64,000 nucleotides of DNA from Owenia fusiformis (lineage: Eukaryota > Annelida > Polychaeta > Sabellida > Oweniidae), in assembly GCA_903813345.2 (NCBI GenBank), contig CAIIXF020000006.1:31106024-31170023 (forward strand), read 5' to 3'. The notes beneath the pieces are model-generated. The model did no database searches. It was not told the origin of the DNA and saw only the letters and a list, made by a program, of their open reading frames with translations. The position numbers and the translations under genes were made by a program. Shown here in pieces: positions 1,585 to 49,300 of the stretch (its first letter is position 1; the number at the start of each line of letters is the position of its first letter).

Positions 1585-4500
1585 GTAAATATGCAGTGAA
1601 ATCAAAAAGTCCCAAATCTTATGCTATTAGATAGCATAAGTATAGCTAATAGCTATGAACATTTTGTAATTTTTGAAATTAACTTGAAATGTGGTATATC
1701 ATAGAAACTGAGTTATATCTGATTTGATATCTATTAAAATGGAAAGTGTGACAAATACATGTTTATTCAACAAGGATATGCTTACTACTTGTTAATAAGT
1801 ACACACTTATTGCTTATCCAGCAAAATATAATTCACTTATTTGTTTAATTTTGAACAATTTTGACATTGCAGCTGTTGCTGAGGCAAGGAGTCTTATATG
1901 TAACGACATGACATTGTATTGTTTGGGAACTTACAATAGTGATGTCCTTCAAGCCTCACATCTAGACCCTTTGCTACAACAGGCAAGTAACATGCCTCCA
2001 CCTACAGACCACCTCACCAAATTTAAAGGTACCATATGTTATAATTACACCCTTCCTCAATCTTTCTTTTCTTATTCACATAATGTTTTTTTTATCTTTT
2101 TCTACTAAGGCCATGTTTCAGAATTCAGAAAATCAATTTCTTCAGTGTTAATAATGGATTCATGTGCTCATCCTTTGCTATCACTCTAAACATACATGTT
2201 AATGTTCAAATGCTATCACTCTAAACATACATGTTAATGTTTTATTATCAGTCTACTTTTACTGAATAAATAAAGCTAATCATAGTGATATGTGAGAGGC
2301 TACAAGAAGTTGCTAGGAAGAATTAGAAACAACTCAACTTAACAAACCACATTAAAGCAAATTTAATTCGAAGTATACTTAGCTAGCTGTGGTTACATAG
2401 ATTTGCCATTGAACACACTATGGATCAACAAGTGTGTTATTTAGCAATTGCTAATAATTACAATGGTTAACATTAGAATTCCCCCGCATCATAATCATTT
2501 CGATTAACTCTAAAGTTTAATCCCAGTTTCAATTGGTTGACATTTTAAAGATGAAATTTGACCAAAACAATGTGTCATGCTCAGAATTTTGGAAGAACAT
2601 TCTTTGAGTGCTTACTTGTAGACCTAGTCTTTTGGAGATAAAGCCTATAGAAACCTGAGCCTATATTGTTTTTTCCAGTCAACTGATGAATTAGTCATGA
2701 CAGACTTACTTCTGAAAATCCAGTATGTCCAATAATTCCAATAAATGTTTAATCAAGTTGACAATGTTTTGTTGCAGATCCCCTATTCTACATCTACACA
2801 TCAGGGACGACTGGTCTTCCAAAGGCAGCTATTGTTATAAACAGCAGGTATGAGTTATACTATTTAACTATATTTAGTCAGTTATACATGTAGTTTAGTA
2901 CAGAAGTAAGTAATAGTATAGCAGTATATTGGCATCATATATCACTTCAAAATTCAAGGTCAATGACAAGGTCACCAGACAAACAGTCTAGTTTTTTGGG
3001 GCTCTGTATGGACTTAACCAATATTTATGTGACTACAATAGTTATTTGTCATCCATGTGTTGACTTGGTGCACAAATACAATGGAATAGGGAAATGGCCA
3101 TCATTTTTATTAGCTACTAAATTACAACTTTTGTTTTTACAAGTATATCCTCATGTGAAAGAGAATATTACTTAAGTCTCAATCAAGTAATGTTAAAAAA
3201 AACTAACCATCACTTTTTTGAGCAACATCTCAAGAGTTATCGCTTTGATTTGCATTGAAAAATATGAAATGGTTATTGCTTATCATAATTTTCACTGTCA
3301 TTGAAAAAAATGATCCAAATATGGCTGTCGTTCAACTAAAAGCGCACAACATGTGATTGTGACCCCAATGCCCATGGTACTTTTATAATTGCTTGTTGCA
3401 ATGTACTTTGACCTTAAATCAAGGTTACCTACTTTTAAATGTCCAAACTTCAAATAAAAATTATTTTTAATATAAATAATCTTTAGAGGATACAAGACGA
3501 TGAGCACCTGTACTTTGTAATCTTTAATAACTAATATTTTATATCAGAAATAACATTGTGTAAACACATGATAAAGATATGTTAGTTTTAAAGTGACAAT
3601 CCCTAATACATATCACAGCATTCTGAAGTGACTGCATTTTTAAGATATCATTAAAAACAATTAAATTTAAGAATTATGAATAATTTATAAGAAATAGTAA
3701 ACTTCAAATTCTTTCACTACCATATTGTTTCTACTTAAACTTTTTTTCCAAATGTCAAATATATGCTATACATTGATAGCTTTTAGCATCATAATAATAA
3801 TGTTTTAAATTGTTTAATTTAAAGTAGAAAATAATCTTGATTTTCATGGTTGAATATTATAGATATATATAAGTATTACTTGAAAGGACCATTCAAAATT
3901 ATTGGGCATATTTTGCCGTTATCTTTTCTTCTTTTCATGCTGGAGATTACTGGTCATTCTAATATGATACGTGACGTCACACTAGCTAGAACAATTGATT
4001 TTCTGGTCTATATTGGAGTATGTATGACTGATAAAATTCATGAATGCAAATAGTTGTGTTTCTTGTTTGTTTATCATATAAGAATCATAACAAAGATATG
4101 ACCTCAAATTTTATTGTGGCCATTCCCAAAGACCTCAATCGCTACGCGATTTTGGTCTTTTAACAATGAACAGTATAAATTTTTCAGTCATATATCATGC
4201 CATAAATCATAAAATCTCGGTCTTTATTCCTTAATTATTAAGTTACCTTAAAGATATATATGAAGAAACATTACTGTTTTTCAGATTTTTCTATATGTCA
4301 TATTCCCTGCATCAGATGTTCAACATGACAGATGATGATATCTTGTACTGTACATTACCTCTGTACCATACTGCTGGTGGTGTTCTTGGTGTAGGACAGG
4401 CTCTAGTCTTCGGAAACACTGTGATCATCAAAAGAAAGTTCTCAGCAAGTAAACACTGGGATGACTGTATCAAATATAATGCTACAGTAAGTATGAGGAC

Positions 4501-7500
4501 TTAATCTAAGACTGATACTTAAGGTTTCTTGCTTAAGTATGAACTGACGGAAACATCAACCAAATATGGGCCAAATGTGAAAATAGACAAATAGACATTG
4601 GAAAAATAAATGGCAGCATGGGTGTTGGTAGGGCCAGAATACATGCAAACATGTAGCAAGAGTCAACAAATTTCTTGATCAAGCAAGTAATTCCATTGAT
4701 AGAAAATTACATAAAAAATGGAAATATGCCATCAAATAGAGGATGTTGGACTTTAATCACTGGTCAAAAATGCAGATTTCCTAAAATCTCATTGGAATGC
4801 ATTTATGTAGCATTACTGAGGGATCATAATTTAATTCTTATCAAGAATTCCTTCAAAATCTTAGAATTGCTGCTCCTTAACCAAGTACTCATGCAGATTC
4901 AGTAGGTTAGAAAGATGATTTAATTGAACTTGTGCATTTGTCCCTTAAATGAGTTTACATTCTTATGACAAGAATGGGCCTGATCTGCCTCATGATATCA
5001 AGATTTAATACTATTCTTGTGCAGTCAAATTGTATCATATACACAGAATGAGAAATCAATGAACTCAAGATGGGGATGCAGAATATTTTTGTTGCTTAGA
5101 ATGGTGGCAGCTATTTTGGAATTTAGCTGATGTTCATAAGTGGAGATTCTCCTTATTTTCTATTAAGGAGACATCATGTTTTTGAATTCAATAAAGTTGT
5201 AAAATACTTGCAGATGATTCAATACATTGGGGAGATCGCTCGCTACCTCCTAGCTCAACCTGAGAGTCCCAAGGATAAAGCGCACAAAGTCAGACTGGCC
5301 TTTGGTAATGGGCTGAGACCCCAAATTTGGGAGGCTTTCATGAAGAGGTTCAATATCAGCGTTATTGGGGAGTTTTATGGTGCCACTGAGGGAAATGCAA
5401 ATGTAGGTAAGTTATGCTGAGGATTACTGCAGGAGTTGAAGTCTTCTCTGGAGCTTTCTAGTGCAGCATTTTTGCTCTCATTATATTGATGTTGGCATAC
5501 AAGTTCTGCTCAAAAATGGATTTCAATTTTCGGCTTGCACTCCCCTTTACCCTAACTGATCAACAAAACTGGTGGACAAAAGTTTTTGTTCAGATCTGAT
5601 CAGTGTTTTGGTGTACATATAGTTTACAACCTCTGATCAAGAGAGAATTTTTCTGGAGACAGTATATTCAAAAGGTAGATCCTATGAAATTGTGAAAATA
5701 TTCATTTTAACCTTTAATGCTTCCAGTTAACTCAGACAACAAAGTTGGTGCAGTGGGATTCACGACAATGATTGCCCCTCAACTCTACCCCGTGACGCTT
5801 ATACGAGTAGACGAACAGACAGGTCTACCACTAAGGGATGAGAATGGAGTTTGTATCAAATGCAAACCAGGGGAACCAGGTGAGCTGGTGGGCAAGATCA
5901 TCAAGGGAGATCCATTGAGGGAGTTTGATGGCTACGTCAACAAGGATGCATCCAGCAAGAAGATCACACAGAATGTTTTTGCTAAAGGAGACTCAGCATT
6001 CCTGACAGGTAAAATGACTACACAAGACCATTTGACACCCTATATAAGTGTTTTATAACAATATGGTATATTAGATTGCTGTGATACAGAGCTAAGCATT
6101 GATCAGCACAAGGGGTACTAACAAAGAGCAAGGCCCACAGCAATCACCTGCTGGCTGGTGCTAATGAAACCCCTGAATGCTTTGTTCTTATGATTTTAAG
6201 GCACCATACTATCTGTGGTCATATATGAACATCATTTAGCGTCATGAGTTGATCCTCACCATATTAATTAGATTCATAAAGCATTCTGGATCATTTAACC
6301 AATAAAATGTCATGAACATTGAAATCTTTATGTATGATTGAGTTCCCTGCTTCTCTTTGTCATTTCTTTCCATGTTTAACACATTATACAACATATGTTC
6401 CTAGGTGACACTCTGGTGATGGATGAATTTGGCTACATGTACTTCCGTGATCGTACAGGGGACACATTCCGCTGGAGGGGTGAGAATGTCTCCACTGCAG
6501 AAGTTGAGGCCTCAGTTAGCAACATTGTACACCTTAAAGACGCTGTCTGTTATGGAGTGGAAATTCCAGGTATTCTTACTTTTTTTGTCGAAATACCCCT
6601 TCCCCGCTCTTAGTTATTAATGATATTAAAGTTTGAAGACCATGTGCAACTTCATACATACTAAACAGAACACCAAGATGGTAGTTGGGGAGTGATTCTT
6701 CTTGAATTAAAATGTGGGGAAAATGGTAAGACATGCAATAAAGCTGCTACATAAACGATGCATATTATTAGTATATAGAATTATCTAAACTGATGTCTTT
6801 AACTTTTTTTACAGCACATGTATTATAAAGTACTCAATTTTTGAGATTTATCAAATGTTTGGGCAAAATCTAAACCTTAAAGATAGATCATTACCTGAAA
6901 ATATATATTTATTTGTCATCTAACAGTTTCAAATGTTAGTCTATATATTGTATCATTAACTTTTGTTGCTAAGCTTTATATTGCTGTTGTTTTGGTCATG
7001 TCTTGTTATGTATGGTTGAAGTAATGTAAAGTCCAAATCTTTAAATGTGAAGTTTTGTCAAATTGGGAGCTATAGAAAGCGTTCCAGTGTAGATTATTAA
7101 CTGCATAATCCTTGTTATATGTACTACACTTAGCATTGTGTCTCTCATGTAAAATATTTGTTTGCAGGCAATGAAGGGCGAGCAGGTATGGTGGCAATCA
7201 TTGATATCTCATATGTAAAATATTTGTTTGAAGGCAATGAAGGTCGAGCAGGTATGGTGGCAATCGTTGATATCTCATATGTAAAATATTTGTTTGCAGG
7301 CAATGAAGGGCGAGCAGGTATGGTGGCAATCATTGATATCTCATATGTGACATATTTGTTTGCAGGCAATGAAGGGCGAGCAGGTATGGTGGCAATCGTT
7401 GATATCTCATATGTAAAATATTTTTTTGCAGGCAATGAAGGGCGAGCAGGTATGGTGGCAATCGTTGATATCTCATATGTAAAATATTTTTTTGCAGGCA

Positions 7501-8723
7501 ATGAAGGGCGAGCAGGTATGGTGGCAATCGTTGATATCTCATATGTAAAATATTTGTTTACAGGCAATGAAGGGCGAGCAGGTATGGTGGCAATCGTTGA
7601 TATCTCATATGTAAAATATTTGTTTGCAGGCAATGAAGGGCGAGCAGGTATGGTGGCAATCGTTGATATCTCATATGTAAAATATTTTTTTGCAGGCAAT
7701 GAAGGGCGAGCAGGTATGGTGGCAATCGTTGATATCTCATATGTAAAATATTTGTTTACAGGCAATGAAGGGCGAGCAGGTATGGTGGCAATCGTTGATA
7801 TCTCATATGTAAAATATTTGTTTGCAGGCAATGAAGGGCGAGCAGGTATGGTGGCAATCGTTGATATCTCATATGTAAAATATTTTTTTGCAGGCAATGA
7901 AGGGCGAGCAGGTATGGTGGCAATCGTTGATATCTCATATGTAAAATATTTGTTTACAGGCAATGAAGGGCGAGCAGGTATGGTGGCAATCGTTGATATC
8001 TCATGTAAAATATTTGTTTGCAGGCAATGAAGGGCGAGCAGGTATGGTGGCAATCGTTGATATCTCACATGTAAAATATTTGTTTGCAGGCAATGAAGGG
8101 CGAGCAGGGATGGTGGCAATCGTTGATGAGCACCAAAGTGTTGACTTGGATCATCTGGCTGATGGCCTGAAGAAGTCTCTACCAGCATATGCTAGACCTG
8201 TATTTGTGCGCCTCATCAAGTCTGTAGATGAGCATATGACAGGTATGATCACAGCAATCCAATCAGTTTGTATGCAAAGTTTCCATAAAACTTGAAAACA
8301 TAAATACTGATGAGGAACTGTAAGCTTCTTGAATCTTGCCATGAAGCATTTTGGAACATTGCCTAACATTATCATTTTTTAGTACACCGTATATTGGCTT
8401 TAGGTACAATTTCTTTTGGTATAATGAGGTTGTTCCATATTTTTATTATTACTCTGTATCTAATTTTGTATCTCAATATGTCAGTGATTTTGAAAGTTGA
8501 AAATTCGACAGATTAGTTAAAAACAACTTGTGTTTATCCCTTGACTTTCTGTATACCTGCAGGTACATTCAAGTTAAAGAAGACATTGCTGAGGAAGGAA
8601 GCATTCAACCCATCAGAGGTCAGTGATGCCATGTTCTTCAAGGATGTTATGTCAGGAGGATCGTACAAACCTCTAACAAAGGACGTCTATGAAGCAATTT
8701 GCAATGGCACAAAACGAGTTTAA
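1196..8723 (+). CDS. SLC27A4: Long-chain fatty acid transport protein (SLC27A1/SLC27A4-like), nine exons, N-terminus missing
   Basis: This gene encodes a fatty-acid transport protein/acyl-CoA synthetase, a membrane protein that takes up long-chain fatty acids and activates them with ATP and CoA. Exons are 1196-1584, 1873-2028, 2778-2847, 4285-4486, 5214-5406, 5727-6008, 6405-6569, 8090-8242 and 8563-8723. Every junction has GT-AG sites and consistent phase, giving 589 residues plus a stop. Visible motifs, in order, are the AMP-binding loop [14 protein letters not shown], the CoA-ligase segment [25 protein letters not shown], and the FATP signature around [19 protein letters not shown]. Family members are about 620-650 residues and start with a membrane segment; about 50 N-terminal residues are absent here. 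SLC27A1 versus SLC27A4 cannot be decided, since an invertebrate gene may be co-orthologous to both. The intron 6570-8089 contains a 66-bp array derived from the next exon's boundary. Confidence 0.93.
1873..2028 (+). CDS. SLC27A4: SLC27A-like, second visible exon
   Basis: The acceptor is GACATTGCAG and the donor AAAG/GTACCA. The codon split with the previous exon reads GCT (Ala). It encodes [18 protein letters not shown] and the linker to HLTKFK, the variable region between the N-terminal lobe and the AMP-binding loop. Confidence 0.85.
2176..2241. repeat. Tandem duplication of a 31-35 bp segment
   Basis: TGCTATCACTCTAAACATAC and the following ATGTTAATGTT occur twice, at 2176 and 2211, in an SLC27A-like intron. 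Confidence 0.85.
2778..2847 (+). CDS. SLC27A4: SLC27A-like, third visible exon (AMP-binding loop)
   Basis: A 70-base exon between GTTGCAG and CAG/GTATGA. It encodes [20 protein letters not shown], the ATP/AMP signature of the adenylate-forming superfamily, with the Ser-Gly-Thr-Thr-Gly core and the motif lysine intact. It begins and ends inside codons, both consistent with the neighbours. It is too short to appear as a long open frame. Confidence 0.93.
4285..4486 (+). CDS. SLC27A4: SLC27A-like, fourth visible exon
   Basis: The acceptor is CTGTTTTTCAG and the donor ACA/GTAAGT. It encodes [20 protein letters not shown] and [19 protein letters not shown], the conserved FATP substrate-side region. 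It ends in phase 0. Confidence 0.93.
5214..5406 (+). CDS. SLC27A4: SLC27A-like, fifth visible exon
   Basis: The acceptor is ACTTGCAG and the donor GTAG/GTAAGT. It starts in phase 0 with [18 protein letters not shown] and ends with [14 protein letters not shown], where YGATEGN is the conserved adenylate-forming core motif. Confidence 0.93.
5727..6008 (+). CDS. SLC27A4: SLC27A-like, sixth visible exon
   Basis: The acceptor is GCTTCCAG and the donor ACAG/GTAAAA. It encodes [30 protein letters not shown] and [19 protein letters not shown], all typical of SLC27A1/A4. It is phase 1 at both ends. Confidence 0.93.
6405..6569 (+). CDS. SLC27A4: SLC27A-like, seventh visible exon (FATP signature)
   Basis: The acceptor is TTCCTAG and the donor CCAG/GTATTC. 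It encodes [20 protein letters not shown] followed by [14 protein letters not shown], the FATP/VLACS signature, then [10 protein letters not shown]. It ends in phase 1, so the next exon must begin at a second codon position; every acceptor of the downstream 66-bp array meets this. Confidence 0.94.
7140..8089 (+). repeat. 66-bp tandem array copying the intron/exon boundary of the next SLC27A exon
   Basis: Fourteen units lead into the true exon at 8090. Unit starts (the GCAATGAAG string) fall at 7168, 7234, 7300, 7366, 7432, 7498, 7564, 7630, 7696, 7762, 7828, 7894, 7960 and 8024. Each unit is 38 bases matching the exon start plus about 28 bases matching the intron end, including an AG acceptor. 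Unit 2 has GAAG in place of GCAG. The unit starting at 7960 is 64 bases and breaks the frame. Acceptor variants TTTTTTGCAG, TGTTTACAG and TGTTTGCAG recur in that order three times before units 6 to 14, a 198-bp higher-order period. The long open frames on both strands here are by-products of the 66-base (22-codon) periodicity. Confidence 0.95.
8090..8242 (+). CDS. SLC27A4: SLC27A-like, eighth visible exon
   Basis: The acceptor is TTTGCAG after the 66-bp array; the donor is ACAG/GTATGA. It encodes [20 protein letters not shown] and [15 protein letters not shown], the conserved C-terminal acyl-CoA synthetase lobe. Only this copy continues into the rest of the exon. It differs from the array copies in having GCAGGGATGG where they have GCAGGTATGG. 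Using the acceptor at 8024 would insert 22 residues in frame; acceptors at 7960 or earlier would shift the frame if the rest of the array were retained. Confidence 0.9.
8563..8723 (+). CDS. SLC27A4: SLC27A-like, last coding exon
   Basis: The acceptor is ATACCTGCAG. It encodes [18 protein letters not shown] and the C-terminal [15 protein letters not shown], ending in a TAA stop at 8721-8723. The length and end agree with the family's usual C-terminus. Confidence 0.93.
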
Positions 8724-19283: not shown

Positions 19284-22200
19284 GTAAGTGTCAACGTTCA
19301 TTATTTCTTCATTGGCAGAGTGTCCAAACACAGCAGAGTGTCCAAACTCCAAACAAACAAATATTTCCATGGTTCGAATTTGATTCTAAGAAATTGATGG
19401 CTTATGTGGAGAGTGTGAAACATTAATTCATTTTATAAAGGATTGTTCTGAACTTAAGAGTCGTCGATTATTATTAAAACCCCTTATTGACAAATATGGG
19501 GATGGCGTATTGCCCTTTATCTTCGCTCCAGATGAGCAGGATGACTGTATATTTATTGTTAATACTTTGTATGCGATGTACCAACATCGAACAAACGCCA
19601 TTTTGTAAATATTATCCCGACCTTGTATTGTTCACCTTAATGTTTGTATATATGTTAACATAAAATAATGTATATTATGATGATCAATTATGGTCGCAAT
19701 AAAGAAATATATATATATATATAAGGGGGAGGTAACGAACAAATTAAATTATGCAATAAAGTATATGCAGGCACATGGATCATCAAATAGAAACATGTGA
19801 TTTATTGTTCACGAAAAATAGTCCCTCTCTGAGAGTGGTTCGGGCCATGCATTTGATCTTTAAGAGGGGGTTGTTCCCACAGGGTTTGTGACAAAGGGAT
19901 TGGGTGGGGGTGGGGGGTTCGCACAAGCCCCATGAACCCTCTCTCGCTACACCCATGGCACTATCTTTCCAGAAAGATACAAGTGTTTAGATGGTCTACA
20001 TCTTTCAGTTTTGCACTAAAAGTACTTTATTATACAGCAATTAAAACCTGTGTAAAGGGAACACTCCATACGACAAAACTGTTCCTTGTCTGCACTCTGC
20101 AGACAGGTGTTCCGTACAGAGATAACTAAAACATTAGAGGAAATAACTGTGAACAGAAGAATCCATTACGCAAATACAAGCTACTAAATGTGGAGAGACA
20201 TTGAGACACTAAAGGTATCCTGGGAAGGTATCACAAACCAGAATTATTTTGGACAGTACATTATTGAGCATTTGACTTTGGAATGGAACTATATTGCTTC
20301 TACTTCAAGGAATATTCCTTGCCAGACCCTTTCTCTCTTGATATGGTAGCTATAATCATATATATAGTTTCCATATTTAGCAAAACATGGGAAAATGTTT
20401 TAATATGGTCAATATTGATCATTTAGAAATCTAGTGCTTATTTCCAGTGAGCTGCCATCTTTTAAGATGTCTTGCAGGACGTGATGTCATCAACTCTCAA
20501 CTTCTATAACCTTGCCCATAACAGTATAGGAAAGTAGCACAAAATCACTTCTAGACAAGTGATCATTACTTTCTGTGCAAAACTGTTTTCAGGGCTTGTC
20601 AACTTAGAATAAAAGAAGAGATTTTCAGAAGGATTAAATAAGATACAAAGTTGAAAAAGAATATTTAGCTGGTTTTGTAATTCTTAAAGCGGCTCTAAGG
20701 TCTGTGGAGAGAAAAATGGAGAAATTTTACCTTTTCTGAGCTATCGGGGTGAAGTTTGGTCCAACATCTTCTTCCTTATTCCTATTTCATAAAAATGTAT
20801 GCATATGGCAATAGTCATCAACCAGTAGAACTGGCAAATCGTTTAGAATCTACAATTCCATACAAGGAGTCCCACTCATAGATTTTTCAAATTCTTTCCA
20901 AGTCGACGTCGAAACACCTAGCGGGTGAAATTGAATCTAATTTTTCTGGCTGCTCGAATCGATAAAATCTCTGATAGTGTGAGTCTTTTTATGAAATCTT
21001 TCTGATAGAAAACACTTAATTAATATTAGAAAGCATTAAATGTTGAATCCGAAGCGTAATCTGAAATAAAAGTGAAAAAATATTGCGCGGACGTCAGAGA
21101 ACAAACTTCCGGTTTAATAAAAAATGACGGACGTCGAAGGAGAAATTATGACGAAGAATTAGAGGATTTTCCTTTGCCATTATCGATCGTTATAAGGTAT
21201 GTGCACAAATTCTAGTTGCATACATGGAAAATAGATACATTTTTAAAGGCAACAACATATTCAAAGCTTTCATTTTACGATAGGCCCAGGATCATTGGAT
21301 ACGACTCGGCAATCGATATTCCCACTTTAATAGCTCCTCACCTAATGCTACATGTAAAGTTGAGCGTCGATGACATCACTTCCTGTGTGAAATTTAAAAG
21401 ATGGCAGCTTACTGGAATTGAGCATCACATTTCTAAGTGATCAAATTTGACCATATCAAAACATTTTTGTGTGTTTTGCTATACATGGCAAGCATATATA
21501 TGGTTATAGCTACCATATGAGGAGAGAGATGGTTTGGCAAGGAATATTCCTTTAAATGCATGTATGGTCAAATGTGGTCAAGAGCGTAGTCATAGCATAG
21601 TCATATGTGGTCTAGAGCATTGTCATATATGGTTAAGAGCATAGTCATATGTGGTCTAGAGCATTGTCATATATGGTTAAGAGCATAGTCATATGTGGTC
21701 TAGAGCATTTTCATATATGGTTAAGAGCAGTCATATGTGGTCAAAAGCATTTTCATATATGGTTAAGTCTTAAGAGCAGTCATATGTGGTCAAGAGCATA
21801 ATCATGTGTTGTCAAGGACAATCATATGTGGTCAAAGGCATAGTCATATTATGTGGTCAAGAGCATAGTACGTCATATGTGGTCAAGAGCATAGTTATAT
21901 GTCATTAAGAGCATAGTCATATGTGGTCAATAGCATTATCATATGAAGTCAAGGGCATAGTCATATGTCGTTAAGAGCATAGTCATATATGGTCAAGAGC
22001 ATAGTCATATGTGGTTAAGAGCATAGTCATATGTGGTCAATAGCATTATCATATGAAGTCAAGGGCATAGTCATATGTGGTCAAGAGCATTATCATATGA
22101 AGTCAAGGGCATAGTCATATGTCGTTAAGAGCATAGTCATATGTGGTCAATAGCATTATCATATGAAGTCAAGGGCATAGTCATATGTAGTTAAGAGCAT

Positions 22201-25200
22201 AGTCATATGGGGTCAATAGCATTATCATATGAAGTCAAGGGCATAGTCATATGTGGTCAAGAGCATGATATATGTGGTATATTCAAACATTAGATAAAAA
22301 TGAAGAATAAGTATCAGTAAAAAGTTAAGAAACATCTGTGAAGCCAGCTTGATTTCACCAAGGGGAGCTTTTGCCAGGAGGGGGAGTTTATAGACAGTTT
22401 ATGCAAAAAAACATGCGAAAAGTGCTAAGAATTGTGAAAGACTGCATGAATTTGAAAGAATTTCTGGTCAAGGGGGGGGGGGTTCCACTTCCCCAGCTCT
22501 CCCTTTATAGTAATAGATCTCCATGTTCATCCTATATATTAATACAACAAAGCTTAATCATTCATCCTTCCTTTTAGATATATCAAGTGGGATTGCACCC
22601 TTTCCACGGGAGGGTGAATCTGGTCCTGCAGTCAACAGCAATGTCTCATCAAAAAGAGATTTAGGTAGCAAGAAAACTGTTAAGTCGCACTTGCCTCCAC
22701 TCAAAGGGGATCTGAGCATGAAGAAGGATGCAAGAAGAAACCGTCATAAGGTGCTTAAAGACTGGAGAAATAGGAGAGTAAAGGCTGCCGAGGTAAATAA
22801 TTGTTTTATTTGTTTTCACCCAAGAAAAATTTAGTAAGTTTATTTAAGGCCACCTGTGCGGCTTGCCAGTCTAAAGCCTTCATTGTTGTTGTAATTTTAA
22901 AGGCAAGTGCTCTGTATTTGAAATATTTGTTTACTTTTTGTGCTCCGCACAGAATAGGGCGTTGTGAGGCAGTCATTATAGGGTTCAATGACATCAAAAT
23001 GGCAACATGCACCTCCCAAAGGTCTGCTCTGTTCTGATATGTAAATGCTTTTATCAAAATTCCAGAAAAAACACTTATCTGTTTGACTTGAAATTTCTAG
23101 AGTTGACTAGACATAGGATCTGATTAGGTTTTTGGCTCGTGGATGAATTACTCGGTGGCAATTTTGAATTCTTCTGTAAAAATAGTGCAATACTCATCAC
23201 TGTTGATTGTTTCCCTTTCTTTTATTGCTATTGTTTAGTATCATTAGCATTCAGTGTTTATTCTTGGACCATTGGTTTTCTTAACATGCAGTAAAATTTT
23301 ACTATATATAGTGAAACCCGAATATCCAAGAGGAGTTCGGATTAAACAGGTTTCACAGACCAATGAGATTTGGACCAGAGAGGTAACCCTTTATGGCCAT
23401 TATTATTATATGTGCTGTGGTTTCAATTGAATATATTATGGTTTCTTAAAAGAATTTGCCTGGGTGTTGTATCATCAAAATAAGGGCTCATAACTGAGAA
23501 CAAATTTAATCATCATCTTTAAAAGTATTAAATGTATTGAAAGTTATAGACTAAAGATCTTATTTGTGTTGGTTTCACGTGAGCCTATTGTTAATATGAG
23601 TATACAATATCATGACTTGTTTGTGTAAAACTTTTCAAGGAAAAATCAATTTTTAATGTTAGAATGGAGTGATCAACATGTAAATGTTTGTCATTTTGAT
23701 GGAGTAATCTCTGGATATAGTTGTATCGTCTCTTCAGACTCATCAGATTTATCATTTCCAAGACAAAGTCATCAAATATTGATGAAAAAGCAATTTACCT
23801 TAAGGCTTGTGCAGATTAATTATCTTAATGCTGACTCTTTTAATTTGATGAGGTTGGAGCAGATATTTCATGTTTGTCCCAAAAACAAATGGAACTTACA
23901 TTTTTAAACTTTTTGAACAAAAAAAACCCAAAAATACTCAAAACTCAAAAAAATGGTAGACCCAAGGCTAATTGTTTTTGAGTTGTACAAGGATAAAAGG
24001 TCAGTCAACAACTGATATCTAGAATTTCAGCTTGGCCATGACTTTTGTTAAAATACAATGTTTATTTGCTTTTAATTGTATTAGGTACCAATTATTTATA
24101 GGTTAGGAATATTGACTTAGCATTTCTCTTTGTGAGCAAAGAATAATTACTATAGCTTGAGAAACTTCAATACTTGGAACACAAAGAACCTCAGAAGGTT
24201 TTCATGACACTTCACTTTTTTTCAAAACTTAATAGGGGCCATACCATTGCATAGAATATGAAAGATTGATTAGGTCCACTATTCATTGATTATTGTAGAT
24301 TGATTAGGGTCACTATTCCATTGAAGTTGTTTGGTTAATTTGGGCCACTATTCCATTGAATATGGTAAATTGAATAAGGTTACCATTCCAAAGAATATGG
24401 CAGATTGATTGGGGCCACTATTCCATAAGATATGGTAGGCTTATTGTGGCCACTATTCCAAAGAACATAGTTGGTTAATTGGGGCCCACTCTTCTATAGA
24501 AAATGATAGGTTAATTGGGGCCCACTATTCTAAAGAATGGTTGGTTAATTGGGGCCCACTATTCTATAGAATATGGAAGGCTAGTTGGGGCCACTATTCC
24601 AAAGAACATGGTTGGTTAATTGGGGCCACTATTCCAAAGAACTTGGTTGGTTAATTGGGGCCACTATTCCAAAGAACATGGTTGGTTAATTTGAATATGG
24701 TAGGTTAATCAAACCTTCTTACAACTATCATATGATCATATCAATTATTTATCTGAAATGAAGTGTCTGAATTCTACTCACCAAGCAATTCCAGTAGTCT
24801 CTGATCTCAATGAATCACTCAATACATATGTAATTTGACTCATATAGTAAGCTTATGGAATTGTCTTCTCACTCATCCATCTATCTGTCCATCTGTTCAT
24901 TCATCTGTCCATCCATCCCTCAACATTTTTTGGAACAATGAAAACGGGATATTTGCCAACCAAATGAAATCTTCAAAGATAAGTGACTCAATTTGTCCAG
25001 TGTTTTATGATACCATTTGAAAGGCTAGAAGGTCAGCTTTAACAATCTTTTCTGCTTAAATAGATTTCATAATTATAAAGTTGGCAAATTAACACCATTT
25101 CATTCCAAGAGTGTTATTTACAAATTTATTGTAACATTTTGATTTTAGAAAAGCAGACAAGAAATAGCATTAGAATAGAAAATTAGTGTCAAACTAAATC

Positions 25201-25787: not shown

Positions 25788-25819
<32 letters not shown>

Positions 25820-28800
25820 CTTTTTTTCTTTATTCATTCATTTCACATACAACTTCTAACATACAATTCATTTTCATATAGTACTGTTAAATTGACATAA
25901 TTTCCATATTTGAATTTACTGATACAGTTTTTGGCTACTAAGACCAAATTATTTATATCACTGTTTTCCATTCCTAAAAGTATATCACTAGTTGACATAT
26001 GTATCATTTTGCCAAATTTAGCATTGCATTTATCTTGTACAACTTTCCACAATCCTTTAACAATTCTACATTCCACAAAGAAATGTTCATATGTATCTCT
26101 CATCGTATTACAATATTTACAGTTCTCATTCTCAGAAAGTTTCATCTTGTATAATAATATGTTTGTTGGGTAAATTTTATGTATAATTTTATATTGCAAT
26201 GCTTTAAGTCTTGGTTCTTTAATTTTTGAAAATTCATACCAAATAGTTTTCCATGTCAAATTTTGATAAATTTGATCCCATTTTGCTTCAACCTTTGGAA
26301 TCATTAACTCTTTATCCAAAATCATATTCTTAAAATGCTTTGCGGTGATATCTTTAACAAACATTTTATTATATTTACAAGGTTTCTCCTCCTGTTGAAT
26401 ATCAACATCGACATTCATCAGTGCACTTTTAACTACATTGTATTGTAAAAGGATTTCAGGTGTTTGCCCGACAATCTGTACAATTTCATCATAATCTTTT
26501 ATGGAACCATTTTGACTTAGAAAATCTTTTACTTTTACAATACCTCGGTCCATCCATTTTTTGAAATAAATATTTGACCTTTTAAACTGTATGTTCATAT
26601 TATTCCAAAACACATCGTGCTTTGAAACACTTTTTGTGATCCTGAGGTCTCTATTGTTGAGCCATTGTTTGATTAGATATATGTAAAATTCTGGGAGTTT
26701 CTCTATTTCTGTTTTATTTTTGAGATTTTCATAATTTGTTTGATATTCAAATATAAATGGTCCATGTCCAGATTTTTTTAGAAAATGTTTAAATATATTA
26801 CGCCAAGTAGCTTGATGTGTTATAGAATATCTTTTTACCCAGGTCATAATCATTGTACTTTGCGTAACGTTTATATCAATCATATTTATACCTCCATTTA
26901 CATATTTTTGACGAAGTATTTTTCTTTTTATCCGTTCCCCTCCTCTCCCAGTTTTATTCCCCCATAAAAACTGATACAAAATATGATTTATATTGTCTAA
27001 TATGTTTTGAGGTGCTTTAAACACCATCAGCATATTTGTTATTTGAGATGCTATCAAAGATTTAATTAAGTTGACTTTTCCAATAAGGGTAATATTTCTC
27101 TTTGACCACAATTTTATCAATGATTTCATTTTATCTATTTTTTGGTTCCAGTTTATTTCAATTTTGCTAGCTTCACATGTATTAGAAAATATAATTCCTA
27201 AGATTTTCAGTTTGGCATTATGTCCAAGTTTCCACGTTATACTACATGGTGATTCCATTGAGTTTTTATTTTGCCCGAGCCACATTGCTTGGGATTTTTC
27301 TTTATTTAGTTTCAAACCTGTGGTCAAATAGAACTTGTCAGACTCTTTCATGAGTTCTTCTAGTGATGCGCTATCTTTTAGAAATGCAGTAGCATCATCT
27401 GCATATGTTGTAATTTTGACATTAGTTTCATTGTTTATAGTAATTCCTTTTATATTATCATTTTGCCTAATTTTATTTGAGAACATTTCTGTTGCTAAAA
27501 CGAAGATCAATGCACTTAATGGACAGCCTTGACGCAAGCCTTGCTTTAATTCAAACCACTGGGTGAAAAATCCATTATTTGTTACCGCTGATGTAGTATT
27601 TTTATTAAAAACTTGAATCCATTTGATAAAGCTTTCACCAAAATTATATTTTTTGAGCATTTCAATGATGAATGTTTTTGATATCGAATCAAATGCCCGG
27701 GAATAATCTAATGCGACCATCATTGCTGGTAAATTCTCTGTCTCAATATGATTTAATACATCATCAATAAGTCGAAGATTAAGATGGATACCTCGCTCCT
27801 TCATATAAGCATTTTGATCTGAATTAACCAATTTCTTAATTACCTTTTGTAACCTCTGAGCTAAAACTGATGCCCCTATTTTATAGTCAACGCATGTTAG
27901 TGAAATTGGGCGAAAACTTTTCAATTTATTCCTTGGGAGTTCTTTACCCTTTAAAAGCAATGTGATGATACCTTTTCTCTGGCTACACGATAATTGTCCC
28001 TTTTGATATGAAAAGTTTAAAGAGTTAATTAAAATCAATTTGACCCTTGACCAGAAAACTTTATAAAAAGCAGATGTAAGTCCATCTATGCCTGGACTTG
28101 AGTCATTTTTCATCTTTTTTAAACATTTTGAGCATTCATCTACAGATATTTCACCTTCACATAATTTCATATCATCATTATTTAATTTAGGAACATTGAT
28201 ATCTTCTATGAAATCATTTAAAGTATATTTAATGTCATCATTTACTTCATATAAGTTCTGATAATATTCAAATAAGATATCTAGCACTTCATTTGTGTTA
28301 GATGTTAATGTTCCATTGCTTTTTTCTAAATGCTCAATTGTTTTCATTTTTGCATTAGAACTTTCCAATCCCAGAAAAAACTTTGTATTCTTTTCACCTT
28401 TTTCTACCCAGTCAATTTTTGAGCGAATTTGAGCACCTTTTGCTTTATTTTCTGTCGCTAATTCAAATTGTAAATTTAATCTATTTTCAACATTTTTAAA
28501 TTCTGCATTATTTGGGGCCTTTGCCAACCTTTTTTGTGCCAAATTCAACTCATGTTCCAAAAGCTTGAGATCATTTTTTTGATTTAAAGCACGTTTTTGA
28601 CAAAAAGAAATAGTCTTTTGTTTGATTTCACTTTTGCATGCATCCCACAGTGTTTGCGGGTTAAGATTCTCAAAATCCTGAGTGACATTTTCAATTAAAT
28701 TATTTATAAGTGATATATAGTGTTTGTCTTTTAAAAGGCTGTTGTTAAACTTCCAATATCCCCTTCCCTTATCTGTTGATCCAAAAATTATATTTGCACA

Positions 28801-31800
28801 TACTGTTTTATGATCTGATCTTGCACATGGGTAAATGTCTGCACTCACAGTTTTATTAGCTAATCCATTTGAAACAAATAAATAATCCAGCCTTCTAGCT
28901 ATAAATGGATTTTTCTGATACCATGAATATTCTTGAACATCCTCATTATGATTACGCCAAATGTCATTCAGATTATTCAAATTGACAAACCTATTAAGTT
29001 TTTCAACCACTTTTTTGCTATGCTTATTACCAGATATAATATCAATGTCATTGTTCATCACACAGTTCATATCACCACCAACTATAATTTCAAAATTCTC
29101 ATCACCAATCGTATCTATTAATTTACTGAGGTTATTCAAAAATTCAATCTTATCATTATCTCTGTTCGGAGCATAGCAATTCACCAGTGCAATTCTTGTA
29201 CCCTCAGTTTTTATTTTCATTATTTGAATGGTACATTTCAATGGTATGTTATCCTTACTTTCAAGTCAACTTGCATATTTCAGTGGTATGTCATCCTTAC
29301 TTTCAAGTCAACCTGCACATGTCAGTGGTATGTCATCCTTACTTTCAAGTCAACCTGCACATGTCAGTGGTATGTCATCCTTACTTTCAAGTCAACCTGC
29401 ACATGTCAGTGGTATGTCATCCTTACTTTCAAGTCAACTTGCATATTTCAGTGGTATGTCATCATTACTTTCAAGTCAACCTGTACATTTCAGTGGTATG
29501 TCATCATTACTTTCAAGTCAACCTGCACGTTTCTGTGGTATGTCATCCTTACTTTCAAGTCAATCTGTACATTTCAATGGTATGTCATCCTTACTTCCAA
29601 GTCAGCCTGCATGTTTCTGTGGTATGTTATCCTTACTTTCAAGTCAGCCTGCACATTTCAGTGGTATGTCATCCTTACTTTTAAGTCAACCTGCACATTT
29701 CAGTGGTATGTCATCATTACTTTCAAGTCAACCTGTACATTTCAGTGGTATGTTATCCTTACTTTCAAGTCAACCTGCACATTTCAGTGGTATGTCATCA
29801 TTACTTTCAAGTCAACCTGTACATTTCAGTGGTATGTTATCCTTACTTTCAAGTCAACCTGCACATTTCAGTGGTATGTCATCCTTACTTTCAAGTCAAC
29901 CTGCACATTTCAATGGTATGTCATCCTTACTTTCAAGTCAACTTGCATATTTCAGTGGTATGTCATCCTTTCTTTCAAGTTGACCTGCACATTTTAATGG
30001 TATGTTATCCTTACTTTCAAGTCAGCCTTCACGTTTCTGTGGTATGTCATCATTACTTTCAAGTCAACCTGCACATTTCAGTGGTATGTTATCCTTACTT
30101 TCAAGTCAACCTGTACATTTCAATGGTATGTCATCCTTACTTTCAAGTCAACCTGTACATTTCAATGGTATGTCATCCTTACTTTCAAGTCAACCTGTAC
30201 ATTTCAATGGTATGTTATCCTTACTTTCAAGTCAACTTGTACATTTCAATGGTATTTCATCCTTACTTTCAAGTCAACCTGTACATTTCAACGGTATGTC
30301 ATCCTTACTTTCAAGTCAACCTGTACATTTCAATGGTATGTCATCCTTACTTTCAAGTCAACCTGTACATTTCAATGGTATGTCATCCTTACTTTCAAGT
30401 CAACCTGTACATTTCAATGGTATGTCATCCTTACTTTCAAGTCAACCTGCACATTTCAATGGTATATCATCCTCAAGATGACCTCCGCTTTCCAAAAATT
30501 TGAAAGCTTGAAAAATTTCCTGACCTAAGAAGCAGTTTGATCAATTCCAAACTAAATTAATTTCATACTGATTGGCTTAAAAGTCAACAATTTTATTTCA
30601 TCATTTATTTTTAGCTTATTTCAAACAAATCATGTCATACCAAAAAACAGGACCGTAAGAAAGTTGAATAATTTCGTCAATTTTGCATATTTTAGAATTA
30701 TTTAGTTCATTCAATATGAATTCTGTTCCTGAAGTTTGATGATAATCTGTCAATTGTGTCAAAAACTACAGTACTTTACGAAACAAGCTCAAAGTGGGCA
30801 CTTCTCCTCTCTTTGCACAAACGAATACTGTGAACCAAGTTGTTAATGACCCTAACCTATACACATCAATGTGGATGGTACATATTGGGGTAGTTATTGC
30901 CCTCTTAAGGTTGTTAGGGGCCTGTCAGTATACACATTGGCTTTGAGAAATCACCAAAGATAAGAATCTGGGGGATTTAGATCTGGCAGATGAACTGCCC
31001 ATATGGTTTGCGTTCTGCGACTGATGAGCTGACCACCAAAGCATTGCCTAAACCATTTCAGCATATCATTTGCAGTGTTAGGGTGGTATTGGCTTGTATT
31101 GGTGGTATTATTCTTGGAATAAACTTGTCCATTCAGAAAGATATGTGTGGAGGGAGATCATCAACAACTTTGTTTGCCGGATTGAATTGTGCATAGAGAG
31201 GAGAGGTGCACATCTTGGGCATGTTTTGTAAGGAACTGTAAATTTTGACTCAACTAACAAATTATTATCAAACTTTCACAACAAAATTCACATTGAATGA
31301 ACTAAATAATTCTGAAATTACAAGGCAAAATATGCAAAATTGAGTTATTCAACTTTCTTACGGCCCTGTTTCTTTTGGACACCCTGTATTCACAACAATA
31401 CTTACACAAGACTCATATGTTTTCCATGACTCTTTCATTGTACATGTATTTCAAGGTCACCCAAATGGCAGCGGCTGGACAGAGGAAAATGAAAGATCAC
31501 AGCATGAATCCAACAGTAACAATCAAACAATGCAAAATTCTAAAATTACTGGACATAGTGCAAGCTTAGAGACAGATTCAGTGGGAAGTGCAGAAACTGA
31601 AAGCACCAACTTAACATCAGGAGTAATGGTGCCAGAATTGAACAATGGGGATCCAGTTTCACAGATAAATGAAGGGAATCCTCAGATACCAAGCATTACG
31701 ACAGAAAGTATGGATGATGGAAATACCAAATCACATGAAAATCTACAGAATGGCCAATTGAGAAATGAAGGCAAGAAAGTAAAATTCAATGATAAGCCAT

Positions 31801-37399: not shown

Positions 37400-38780
37400 T
37401 AAAAAATGCCCCCAGTGGCCCCCAGAAGCTATACCATGGACCCCAGTGGCCCCAGAAGCTATACAGGGGCCCCCTGTGGCTCCAAGATGCTATAAGGTGG
37501 CCACCAGAAGCTATACAGGGACCCCTAGTAGCCCCCAGAAGCTATATGGTAGCCCCCAGAACCTATACAGGGGCTCCAAATGGCCCCTAGAAGCTATATG
37601 GTGACTTCCAGAAGCTATACAGGGGCCCCCAGTAGCCCCCAGAATCTATACAGTGGCCCCTAGTGCCCCCTAAAGCTATACGGTGGCCCCAGAAAGCTAT
37701 ATGGTGGCCCCCAGAAGCATATCCATCAGCCCCTAGTAGCCCCCAGAAGCTATATGGTGGTCCCCAGTGGCTCCAAGAAGCTTTACAGTGGCCCCCAAAA
37801 GCTATACAGGGGCCCCTAGTGGCCCCAAGAAGCGATATGGTAGGCCCCAGAAGCTATATGATGGCACCCAGAAGCTATACGGTGGCCCCAAGTAGCCGCC
37901 AGAAGCTATATGATGGCATCAAGTGGCCCCCAGAAGCTATATTGTAGCCCCCAGAAGCTGTACGGTGGCCCCCAATTGCCCCAAGAAACTATACAGGGGC
38001 CCTCAGAAGCTATACGGTGGCTCCCAAAAACTATATGGTGGCACCCCAGTGTCTCCAAGAAGCTAAACAGGAGCCCCAAGAAGCTATACAGGACCCCTAG
38101 TAGCCCCCAGAAGCTATATGGTAACCCTCGGAAGCTATACAGGACCTCCAAATGGCCCCTAGAAGCTATATGGTGACTTCCAGAAGCTATGCAGGGGCCC
38201 CCAGTAGCCCCCATAATCTATACAGTGGCCCCTAGTGCCCCTTTAAAGCTATACGGTGGCCCCAGAAAGCTATATGGTGGCCCCCAGAATCATATCCATT
38301 AGCCCCTAGTAGCCCCCAGAAGCTATATGGTGGTCCCCAGTGGCTCCAAGAAGCTTTACAGTGGCCCCAAAAAAGCTATACAGGGGCCCCTAGTGGCCCC
38401 AAGAAGCTATATGGTAGGCCCCAGAAGCTATATGATGGCACCAAGAAGCTATACGTTGGCCCCCAGTAGCCGTGAGAAGCTATAGGATGGCATCCAGTGG
38501 CCCTCAGAATCTATATGGTAGCCCCCAGAAGCTGTACGGTGGCCCCGAATGGCCCCAAGAAACTACAGGGGCCCCCGGAAGCTATACGGTGGCTCCCAAA
38601 AAAAAAGAAAAAAATTCACGATGTTGTCAATCTGAAATGTTTCATGGCCATTAAATTTCACTGTTAGAGAAATATCCAATTGAATTCAATGTTAAATCAA
38701 ATATCCAGTGCCTTTAAAAGCTATACGATGGTCCCCAGTGCCCCCCAGAAGCTATACAGGGCCCCCCAGTAGTCTGACTG
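37400..38780. repeat. 22-24 bp minisatellite with a 572-bp higher-order repeat
   Basis: The unit is like GCCCCCAGAAGCTATACGGTG plus G/GC, about 55 copies, C-rich against an AT-rich background. A block starting CTATACAGTGGCCCCTAGTG at 37646 recurs at 38218, so a multi-unit segment of about 572 bases was duplicated in tandem. It is interrupted by about 110 bases of other sequence near 38600-38710. Frames on both strands are artefacts. Confidence 0.9.
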
Positions 38781-46384: not shown

Positions 46385-49300
46385 CTGAAACAATGAAAAT
46401 GTTATGATTTAATTTTACAAAACAAAATATATTTTCATTATTACCACATTGCATTGGACATAATGACTCAGATGGGAGTAGGTAGTTACCAGTTTCACCA
46501 CCAGGTGGCTAGTTCGGGTCAGATAGGATGCATGTATCAGAGAAAGTTCCCTTTAACTTAATATTCATTTGCTTTAGTGGTTCAATTTTTATATCACCCA
46601 TATGTATCTAATAGTTATACAAATAAAATATGTACAGTAAAAGAAAATGTTATCTGTCCAATACAAGAAAAGATAAATCACTTTTTGTGATTTTATAACA
46701 TGGGGTCTATGGGGAATCTCCCCAAACTAGAAGTCACATTTTCAAAAAATATTATCTTCAAAGTTGATAAACAATTTTCGAAACAATATTTTTGGATGTA
46801 CTTTTACTAGTAGATTTCAAATATAATATCACTTTTGAATTTTGAATATTTAATGACGTAAATCAATATTATATCTACTTGCATCTAGTCTATTGGAATA
46901 CTTTATACCTGTCTCAGATTACACAACACATCCAGTAAGTTTTGATCTTTTTACCAATATACATGTACATTTTAAAAGTTATTTCTGCAATACCAAACCC
47001 AAAGGTATACCCCACTCTTTGGCCAACCAGGATTACAAAAGCTATATCATGCTATAAGCTTATTTTGAATTGGGTAAACTAAAAATGATTAATGCAAAAT
47101 AAATAAAAAAGTAAACAACCAGGTCTGATTACCCCTGGTCATTACTGGTAAGTAAGTACAGATCCCCTAACAAGTTCTGGTGACTATTGCTATGTCATTA
47201 CACACTGTGTACAAAACAAGTGTATAATCACTTACTGCATTATATGTTGCACAATTTTTGAAAATAAGCTGGACATCTTCAATGAAGGTTTCTACACTGT
47301 CATAATGGTCAAAGTGACCTCTTCGCAACTTAGTTTTAATGCTTGTCAGATCCATAGGCTGTGTTATAATCTTGTAGTAGTTTGGAACCTGCAATGTATG
47401 AAGCAAATACACATCAGACTTATGTAAACAAAATTAGGAGAAATGTACACAGATTATTAATAACAAGACAATATTCATCATAAACACATCAATTATATTT
47501 CAGATTGAATCACCCCTCCCCATTACATATAAGAATAAGAATGATTTTTGAAGTTGCTTTCTTCAAAAATAGATTTGTTATTAGGGTACTGAACAGAAAT
47601 TATTCATCAGATATGAAATGTAATGTTTTTTCACTAAAGGTCACAATTCTAATATGGACAATGGCAACTTCTTAATTAAGCATAGGAATACAAGGCATTA
47701 ACATGCAAAAGTCACTACCTGCCATTTTAACAGGCACCAACCACTAATGCCATCCACAAAAAGTCGGAGATTATAACAATATGTCACCACTTGTAGTGGT
47801 GACATTAAAATGACTGTTAAAACATATAGTCAGGAATATTTAGGTGAAAATATTTCAAAAATATATAGAAGCAATTTTAAGGTGGATTTCAAAACTTCAT
47901 ACCATTCTTTTGAAAACCTGAAGTGGCACCAAGCAATCCATTGACTTTTTCACCAAAAATCCAAGATGGCCGCTGTGATGTATCAAAAAATCATAAAAAA
48001 TGACTAAAGTTATGATTTAATAAGTCAAAATAGTTGTATACTGATCAAACATGACTAATAATAGTACCTATCAGAAATTCATATCCATTTAAAGTCATTG
48101 GATCATTTTTGTGTGAAAACTGGAGTCCCACAAGGCTCAACTTTATGTCCGCTACTTTTTTGGCATTTTTTGCATTGACCATGGCATTTGCACATAGCAA
48201 TGCATAGAAATCCATTTTTGTAACATGTGCACCTAGGACCACATTTCACCTTGAACCCACACTTGATCAATGCTTTGCATGCTGCTTGAGGAAGGGCTGT
48301 TTCACCAAAAATCCAAGATGGCCGCCTCAATGTATCGGCAAATCACTAAAATTGACTAATATCATCATTTAATTTGTCAAAATAGTTAAATACTGATCAA
48401 ACATGACTAATTATAGTACCTATTAGATGGTCATATACATTTAAAGTCACTAGATTATTTTTGTGTGAAAACTGGAGTCCCACAAGGCTCAACTTTATGT
48501 CCCCTACCTTTTTAGTCTAATGACTTTCATTGACCATGGCATTTGTACATTGTAATGTATAGAAATCCATTTTTGTAACTTGTGCACCCAGGACCACATT
48601 TCACCTTGCACCCACACTTGACCAATGCTTGGCATGCCTTAGCTGCTTGAGGAAGGGATGTACATAGTGGCACCAAGGGGGACATGTCATACTGCCAGCC
48701 CCATGTTGTGAACTCCGATACCCATGTTGGATTGAAGTTGGCCCCAAACAATACAACCTTGGTTAGCAAGTTCTTAAAATTTTCTGTGCAAGGGCTCCTT
48801 TTGTTGGTGGCATTCTATCAATGACTGTATGGCCATCACAGAACATTTGCCTTCGTGCCGCATCGATATCTATCTGGTTGCTGGTTCGATCATATACTAG
48901 AACAGTAAAACATTTTAGGGACTGAATGGCATGAACTGACAAAGTCAGGTTTGTTGTAACCATTTGTGCTACTTGTAGAAAAGCTGGAGTAACTTCCTTG
49001 AACACATTCCATAGATTGAAGGGCAGATTCTTTGCTATGGCCAAAGAATGGTGCAGTTATATAATATAATTTAATACCTGTAATTTTTGAGAGGTCAGAA
49101 GGCAATCCAGATTTACACTTATTGCACCCTAATGCTGCAGCCATGGCAAGAACAACTACACCAGTATTTCCACTGATTCTGTTTATGAAGTCTTTTTTAC
49201 CTTTTGAGGTCATCTGAACAAAGAGTGCAGTATTATCTTCTTTATGAGTACACGGTTCAATCATTACCTGATTACTGTAACTGGCAACTGAGGAAAGCAC

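Follow-up and report, generated by a model that had tools for sequence, protein, structure and literature searches.

A probable mirage-type minisatellite made from the intron 7/exon 8 boundary of an SLC27A-like gene in the annelid Owenia fusiformis

In a 64,000-nucleotide stretch of the genome of the annelid Owenia fusiformis (hereafter the window; positions 31,106,024 to 31,170,023 of contig CAIIXF020000006.1, GenBank assembly GCA_903813345.2), intron 7 of an SLC27A-like gene ends in a minisatellite built from the gene's own 3' splice site. Tandem Repeats Finder located it at positions 7147-8127 of the window (period 66, 14.9 copies, 96% matches, score 1843), the authentic boundary of exon 8 being the last copy. 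The existence of this splice-site array was confirmed, and its boundary copies, lying in tandem beside the authentic boundary, are what a preliminary description of this DNA had reported. Minisatellites of this kind have been named mirages in amphioxus, where they are described for Adh3 and the globins BflGb6 and BflGb9 (PMC3087553) as well as for troponin C and PGBD5, the latter two on the account of PMC3902484. Judged by its letters, the SLC27A-like array is a mirage too: its units span the boundary, they stand beside the authentic one and they contain splice signals. The known class is, on the same grounds, extended to annelids, with one special trait, namely a donor in every decoy copy that is missing from the true exon. 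We consider it likely that the array is a mirage-type minisatellite by origin and that exon 7, which ends at 6569, is joined mostly or always to the authentic acceptor at 8090.

The anatomy of the array, its reading frames, the pairing energies of its splice sites and the recurrence of boundary arrays elsewhere in the genome were observed directly. Intron 7 (6570-8089, forward strand as for the whole gene and array; 1520 nt, phase 1) is the longest of eight modeled introns (288-1520 nt) and carries the array at its 3' end. It separates exon 7 (6405-6569), supported by the exon model, its translation and homology to long-chain fatty acid transport protein 2 (FATP2) and ending in the donor CAG/GTATTC (the slash marks the splice position), from authentic exon 8 (8090-8242, 153 nt, donor CAG/GTATGA). 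An array unit takes 28 bases from the intron side and 38 from the exon side of the intron 7/exon 8 boundary. The 14 copies ahead of the authentic one, termed decoys here, have their first exonic bases at 7168, 7234, 7300, 7366, 7432, 7498, 7564, 7630, 7696, 7762, 7828, 7894, 7960 and 8024. The acceptors are 66 bp apart in 13 of 14 steps (12 steps, then 64 bp from 7960 to 8024, then 66 bp). The 14 near-identical 66-bp units of 28 plus 38 bases given in the preliminary description were thus recovered, save that one spacing, and with it the final decoy unit (7998-8061, acceptor 8024), measures 64 bp. At the intron side, the first decoy unit (7140-7205, acceptor 7168, donor after 7185) has a short ctcatgtaaaat form at the edge.

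An AG acceptor is present in all 15 copies, in keeping with the earlier count of up to 15 acceptors on offer, and a CAG/GT donor in all 14 decoys. Every copy also has a YTNAY branch-point-like motif 21-23 nt upstream of its acceptor. Over the last 20 intronic bases, five of the 14 decoys match the authentic site exactly and four have a longer run of seven T; the others show TACAG (three decoys), GAAG in place of GCAG (the decoy at 7234) or changes at two other positions (one decoy). When units are compared with the third unit on, 6 of 11 pairs are identical, vs. 1 of 13 pairs of neighbors. This reflects a 198-bp, three-unit higher-order repeat at 7470-8061, with three successive copies of which the third is 2 bp shorter; two successive 198-bp blocks are identical. 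Read from this pattern, the array appears to have been amplified recently in three-unit steps. Its edges diverge from the homogenized middle. This is the picture expected from concerted evolution in the interior of the array with divergent edges, as in the amphioxus globin mirage (PMC3087553).

A 201-base array query against the 498.3-Mb assembly returned seven matches, every one at the SLC27A-like locus, and no second copy of the locus. The array is known from a single assembly, and for one amphioxus haplotype the genome draft apparently had the globin mirage wrongly assembled, according to PMC3087553. However, the ordered private variants, the 198-bp pattern with its 2-bp difference, a total of only about 1 kb and the presence of four further boundary arrays with other unit lengths in the same genome (see below) make an assembly artifact or a chance repeat hardly credible.

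We then looked at the reading frames. All 15 acceptors present the identical phase toward the upstream exon, as had been noted before; downstream, the frame is kept by read-through from 8024 only. Read-through from decoys 1 to 13 leads to a stop in 13 of 13 cases, because the 64-bp spacing throws the frame out. The first stop met is at 8028-8030, forward strand, at the end of an open reading frame (ORF, 7134-8030) of 298 codons. The last decoy unit disrupts this frame and its own frame continues into exon 8, where decoy 8024 would add 22 amino acids. The preliminary description had predicted length variants of the protein through acceptor choice. The open 298 codons and the one in-frame decoy speak for it, but with stops in 13 of 14 decoys a series of in-frame length variants is impossible by this route. 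Furthermore, the open frame carries no sign of selection, since a 22-codon unit is open by chance in about 1 in 3 cases (our own estimate), and in the two other acceptor arrays, spaced at 45/61 and 260/259 bp, seven of seven decoys meet stops. Such variants are, in our opinion, very improbable.

The decoys have a second feature, overlooked in the preliminary description together with the known mirage class, although the acceptors had been described. At 18 nt after the acceptor, CAG/GTATGG is found in all 14 decoys vs. CAGGGATGG in authentic exon 8. Stretch by stretch, CAGGGATGG of the authentic exon corresponds to CAGGTATGG in all 14 decoys, and GAGCAGGGATGG to GAGCAG/GTATGG; the donor GT is absent from the authentic copy. 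The codons concerned are GGT and GGG, respectively, both for glycine, so that the difference is synonymous. In the first decoy, the resulting mini-exon lies at 7168-7185 and reads AG/GCAATGAAGGGCGAGCAG/GT, a layout common to the 14 decoys (one internal base is changed in 7234). It is 18 nt long, a multiple of three, lies in the phase of exon 8 and translates as NEGRAG. To judge from these signals, every decoy amounts to an entire mini-exon of 18 nt that keeps the frame and has its own acceptor and donor. The calculated energy of the duplex with U1 was -8.8 kcal/mol for the decoy donor, compared to -5.6 to -10.5 for the eight authentic donors of the gene, and none of the gene's remaining 244 intronic GTs reached the energy of the decoy donor. 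In addition, the authentic exon 3 donor (AGCAG/GTATGA) differs from the decoy donor (AGCAG/GTATGG) only by the final base.

Could these mini-exons be used? If the decoys worked as a ladder of 18-nt exons, each spliced in frame at its own acceptor and donor, the C-terminal ligase lobe would gain a single NEGRAG hexapeptide or several. The constant 18-nt distance, the shared phase with exon 8 and the donor found in 14 of 14 decoys and absent from the authentic copy are all consistent with such a ladder. Against it, decoy-to-decoy introns would be 48 nt long (46 nt once) compared to 288-1520 nt for the modeled introns, and the hexapeptide would fall within a conserved stretch aligned to FATP2. 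No decoy-only donor was seen by eye in the two other acceptor arrays (L022 and L039, below). Exons of 18 nt usually depend on special enhancers. Taken together, we regard such a working ladder as quite improbable. The wider notion, that the base change gave the decoys a donor 18 nt on and thereby rendered them either self-neutralizing or a productive ladder of 14 in-frame mini-exons, seems unlikely as well; were it true, any used decoy would cost six residues (NEGRAG) only, with no frameshift. A search of the assembly for GGGCGAGCAGGCAATGAAGGGCGAGCAG, the string expected at a mini-exon junction, gave no match. Splicing of exon 7 to an acceptor, whichever it is, is predicted to give AAATTCCAGGCAATGAAGG, a string not present in the 64-kb window, followed by GCGAGCAGGGATGG for the authentic exon, GCGAGCAGGTATGG for decoy read-through or GCGAGCAGGCAATGAAGG for a spliced mini-exon; ATCTCACATGTAAAATATTTG between exonic stretches of a mature mRNA would be the mark of read-through from 8024.

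Which acceptors are used, and why, we infer from these observations. In local sequence, the decoys are hardly distinguishable from the authentic acceptor. The difference lies in the exon that follows, 153 nt for the authentic site vs. 18 nt before a donor for the decoys. The site at 8090 would be preferred as the sole acceptor that runs on into the body of an exon of normal size and to its downstream donor. A decoy acceptor with its own donor 18 nt on would delimit a mini-exon too small for good exon definition. The decoy donors may even assist, each decoy being closed into an exon too small for recognition. Exon definition would then pick the exon-contiguous copy, here and in the other four arrays. 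Occasional use of a decoy would lead mostly to a premature stop; the other possible products are 22 additional residues, from decoy 8024 only, or six residues per mini-exon used.

Several points weigh against this preference for 8090. The local acceptor quality of the decoys is close to that of the authentic site (4 of 14 with the seven-T run, 5 of 14 identical over 20 nt), and some use of them is plausible. The GT-less authentic stretch, GGATGG, reached -6.7 in the same U1 calculation; the energy is thus blind to the GT itself and is, alone, no test of a donor. Exon definition in O. fusiformis is an assumption. Boundary arrays showed no enrichment at exon ends in our survey (below) and may just be tolerated there. 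Finally, the human ABCA7 variable number tandem repeat (VNTR) in intron 18 has a donor in its unit, and one such unit has been observed to be retained (PMC5954066).

The near-equality of the acceptors and the good decoy donors also suit a different role, that of a length-dependent attenuator, in which competing sites would slow or misdirect splicing, nonsense-mediated decay would remove the products and allele length would tune expression. The read-through stop at 8028-8030 lies 212 nt upstream of the exon end at 8242. By the usual rule for nonsense-mediated decay, such a distance is within reach. Moreover, PMC5954066 describes a correlation of ABCA7 VNTR length with the skipping of exons and with reduced expression. 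The amphioxus cases, however, are described in PMC3087553 and PMC3902484 without interference with regular splicing, and we consider an attenuator quite unlikely.

We surveyed the cluster of paralogs on C10 and 20 myosin-head regions; gene family, not repeat content, guided their choice. The 104 exon segments surveyed (84 myosin-head and 20 paralog segments) are hidden Markov model or tblastn matches rather than annotated exons. The 20 regions held 84 of the 92 myosin matches, with eight outside, and 65 of 210 first-look candidates were scored. In this small, family-chosen sample, 4 of 104 segments had a boundary array in addition to the SLC27A-like one. At L022, three decoy acceptors spaced by 260, 260 and 259 bp precede the authentic myosin acceptor, and at L039, four decoy acceptors do so with spacings of 45, 61, 61 and 61 bp. 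The left array of L021 (34 bp x 4, 100% identical) is on the donor side of a myosin segment. The fourth, L017 (21 bp x about 33), starts at a paralog donor and is the weakest case, as only four exonic bases are in the unit; 25 of its 33 post-GAAA stretches keep GT at the place of the donor. Upon read-through in the authentic frame, all seven decoys of L022 and L039 hit a stop, and regular messages from these loci therefore need the authentic site. In each of the five arrays, the copy that adjoins the exon body agrees with the conserved protein, as far as checked (the downstream joins of the myosin exons were outside the check), which is as expected under exon definition.

Tandem arrays with a period of at least 10 cover 12,409 of 164,000 bases in the myosin regions. 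Counting arrays of period 10 or more within 20 nt on either side of a segment end, we found 5 of 168 myosin ends near an array, compared to a mean of 12.4 and a minimum of 2 in 200 random placements; hence, arrays are not enriched at these exon ends, which speaks against their being targeted there. After sequence inspection, three of the five were accepted as boundary arrays (L021 left, L022 and L039). The other two were dropped, L020 (17 bp x 2.2) for lack of GT in its second copy and the right-hand array of L021 (21 bp) for being wholly intronic. AMP-binding matches were also dropped as multi-exon controls, as the 14 scored among 186 candidates were all nearly whole-domain single matches. 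In the 260-bp array of L022 (L022:6426-7522, on G000:C4), the decoy adjoining the authentic exon reads NDQLFKLEAPDYTEEGIP vs. NDHIFKLEAQDYTDEGIP, with silent and conservative changes mixed, as if it were a former real alternative exon or had been converted from another gene. Elsewhere among the myosin loci, L038 (G000:C9:37986001-37996000) has, at 37986009-37994334 on the minus strand, 12 tandem variants of one myosin heavy chain exon (TYSGLFCVVINPYKRLPIY... type). Several have plausible AG and GT borders, and the whole suggests a group of exons that are used in a mutually exclusive way.

The C10 paralogs also bear on the age of the array. In one of them (L007/L018), the intron position falls in the corresponding glycine and the equivalent codons read GAGCAGGGATGG, so that the GT-less form is probably the ancestral state; another paralog (L006) reads GCTGGCATGG there. 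The shared position makes the intron older than the array. An origin of the intron from the array was accordingly rejected, two C10 paralogs having an intron at the same glycine codon (one segment ends with PG and the next starts with G). No array touches the ends of these two paralog introns; the first has other arrays inside, away from its ends (L016:8661-9642). We propose that a stretch of 28 bases of intron and 38 of exon at an ancestral boundary became duplicated in tandem, that one copy would have acquired the donor CAG/GT by a synonymous G-to-T change, and that this donor-bearing copy was then amplified, the latest steps presumably being of three units (198 bp).

In amphioxus, mirages have been described at both 5' and 3' boundaries, with AG and GT signals in many units, and haplotypes differ in their length (PMC3087553; PMC3902484). 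The data on Adh3 and the globins suggest that regular splicing is undisturbed (PMC3087553; also PMC3902484). The annelid array resembles the mirages described in these two papers by its boundary repeats beside an authentic boundary, its units with AG and GT, its homogenized middle and its divergent edges. It differs by its host, by its 66-bp unit present 14 times and by one base that every decoy has and the authentic copy lacks, which yields the 18-nt mini-exons. With the ABCA7 VNTR, it shares an intronic repeat containing a splice donor (the 25-bp ABCA7 unit, as given in PMC5954066, starts with the donor). The ABCA7 unit, whose splicing effects were measured, repeats a donor only, whereas the annelid unit joins a full acceptor to an exon start. 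In human segmental duplications, internal tandem repeats change gene structure, and those at exon-intron boundaries are a possible source of splice sites and introns (PMC2812944); in the model of Rogers, as cited in PMC3087553, introns arise from duplicated AG/GT proto-splice sites. The annelid case departs from both, since its intron is shared with paralogs and predates the array, and no gained intron was shown. A literature search in open-licence papers found no description of arrays called mirages outside amphioxus and no paper on O. fusiformis together with minisatellites.

The host gene is a member of the SLC27A/FATP family by similarity over its whole length, and its earlier designation as SLC27A-like holds. 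A nine-exon coding model matched the AMP-binding domain of Pfam (2.9e-57, 194.6 bits, cut-off 29.9) and, just under the cut-off, AMP-binding_C (22.9 bits vs. 24.5). Against FATP2 in the Protein Data Bank (PDB), it aligned over residues 21-586 of 589 (7.7e-140, 470 bits). Exons were set by eye and the start codon was not established; further 5' exons beyond modeled exon 1 are likely. Exons 1 to 6 of the model, on the forward strand, lie at 1196-1584, 1873-2028, 2778-2847, 4285-4486, 5214-5406 and 5727-6008, and exon 9, the final coding exon with the stop codon, at 8563-8722. On C10, two adjacent AMP-binding domains in open frames of 1229 and 933 codons (G000:C10:9447898-9460022) are unlike the multi-exon SLC27A genes.

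The annelid source agrees with 34 innexin matches in the assembly and with matches to the C-terminal domain of the erythrocruorin linker (PF16915), a domain specific to annelids; all three of the matches listed exceeded the cut-off. Amphioxus, suggested by the mirage literature and expected to have GFP-family genes and a G+C content near 41%, was set aside on these matches, on chromosome number and on G+C content; a GFP-family search gave no match, but the control genomes gave none either. A COX1 search found no mitochondrial contig at the threshold used. The window has a G+C content of 34.75%, and arrays with a period of at least 10 cover 5301 of its 64,000 bases. Further minisatellites are found at 21594-22278 (22 bp), 24269-24691 (35/70 bp) and 37410-38598 (about 52 bp). 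On the minus strand, a non-LTR (long terminal repeat) retrotransposon at 25791-29265 has an open frame of 1140 codons (endonuclease, reverse transcriptase and zf-RVT) and seems to be inserted in a 42-bp minisatellite (29233-30473), with fewer than two units past its poly-A end and about 29 at the other end. Two copies of one sequence in opposite orientation, 48438-49320 and 50427-51299, share 88.7% identity across 894 aligned positions and contain partial open frames; this pair is an inverted duplication, probably of a mobile element. At 47170-57624 on the minus strand, open frames for a B-box, a PHD finger and a bromodomain follow in order, perhaps from a TRIM24/33-like (TIF1) gene.

With the SLC27A-like array, the mirage phenomenon reaches a phylum distant from lancelets, and its occurrence in 4 of 104 segments suggests that it is not rare in this annelid genome. 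Such loci allow one to ask how the splicing machinery settles on one of as many as 15 sites of almost equal local quality, copy number serving as a natural variable. They also pose the question of whether repeats at the edges of exons seed new exons or introns. If the ladder of mini-exons were true, the genome would hold a series of natural experiments on exon definition against near-perfect decoys, as well as a source of new exons.

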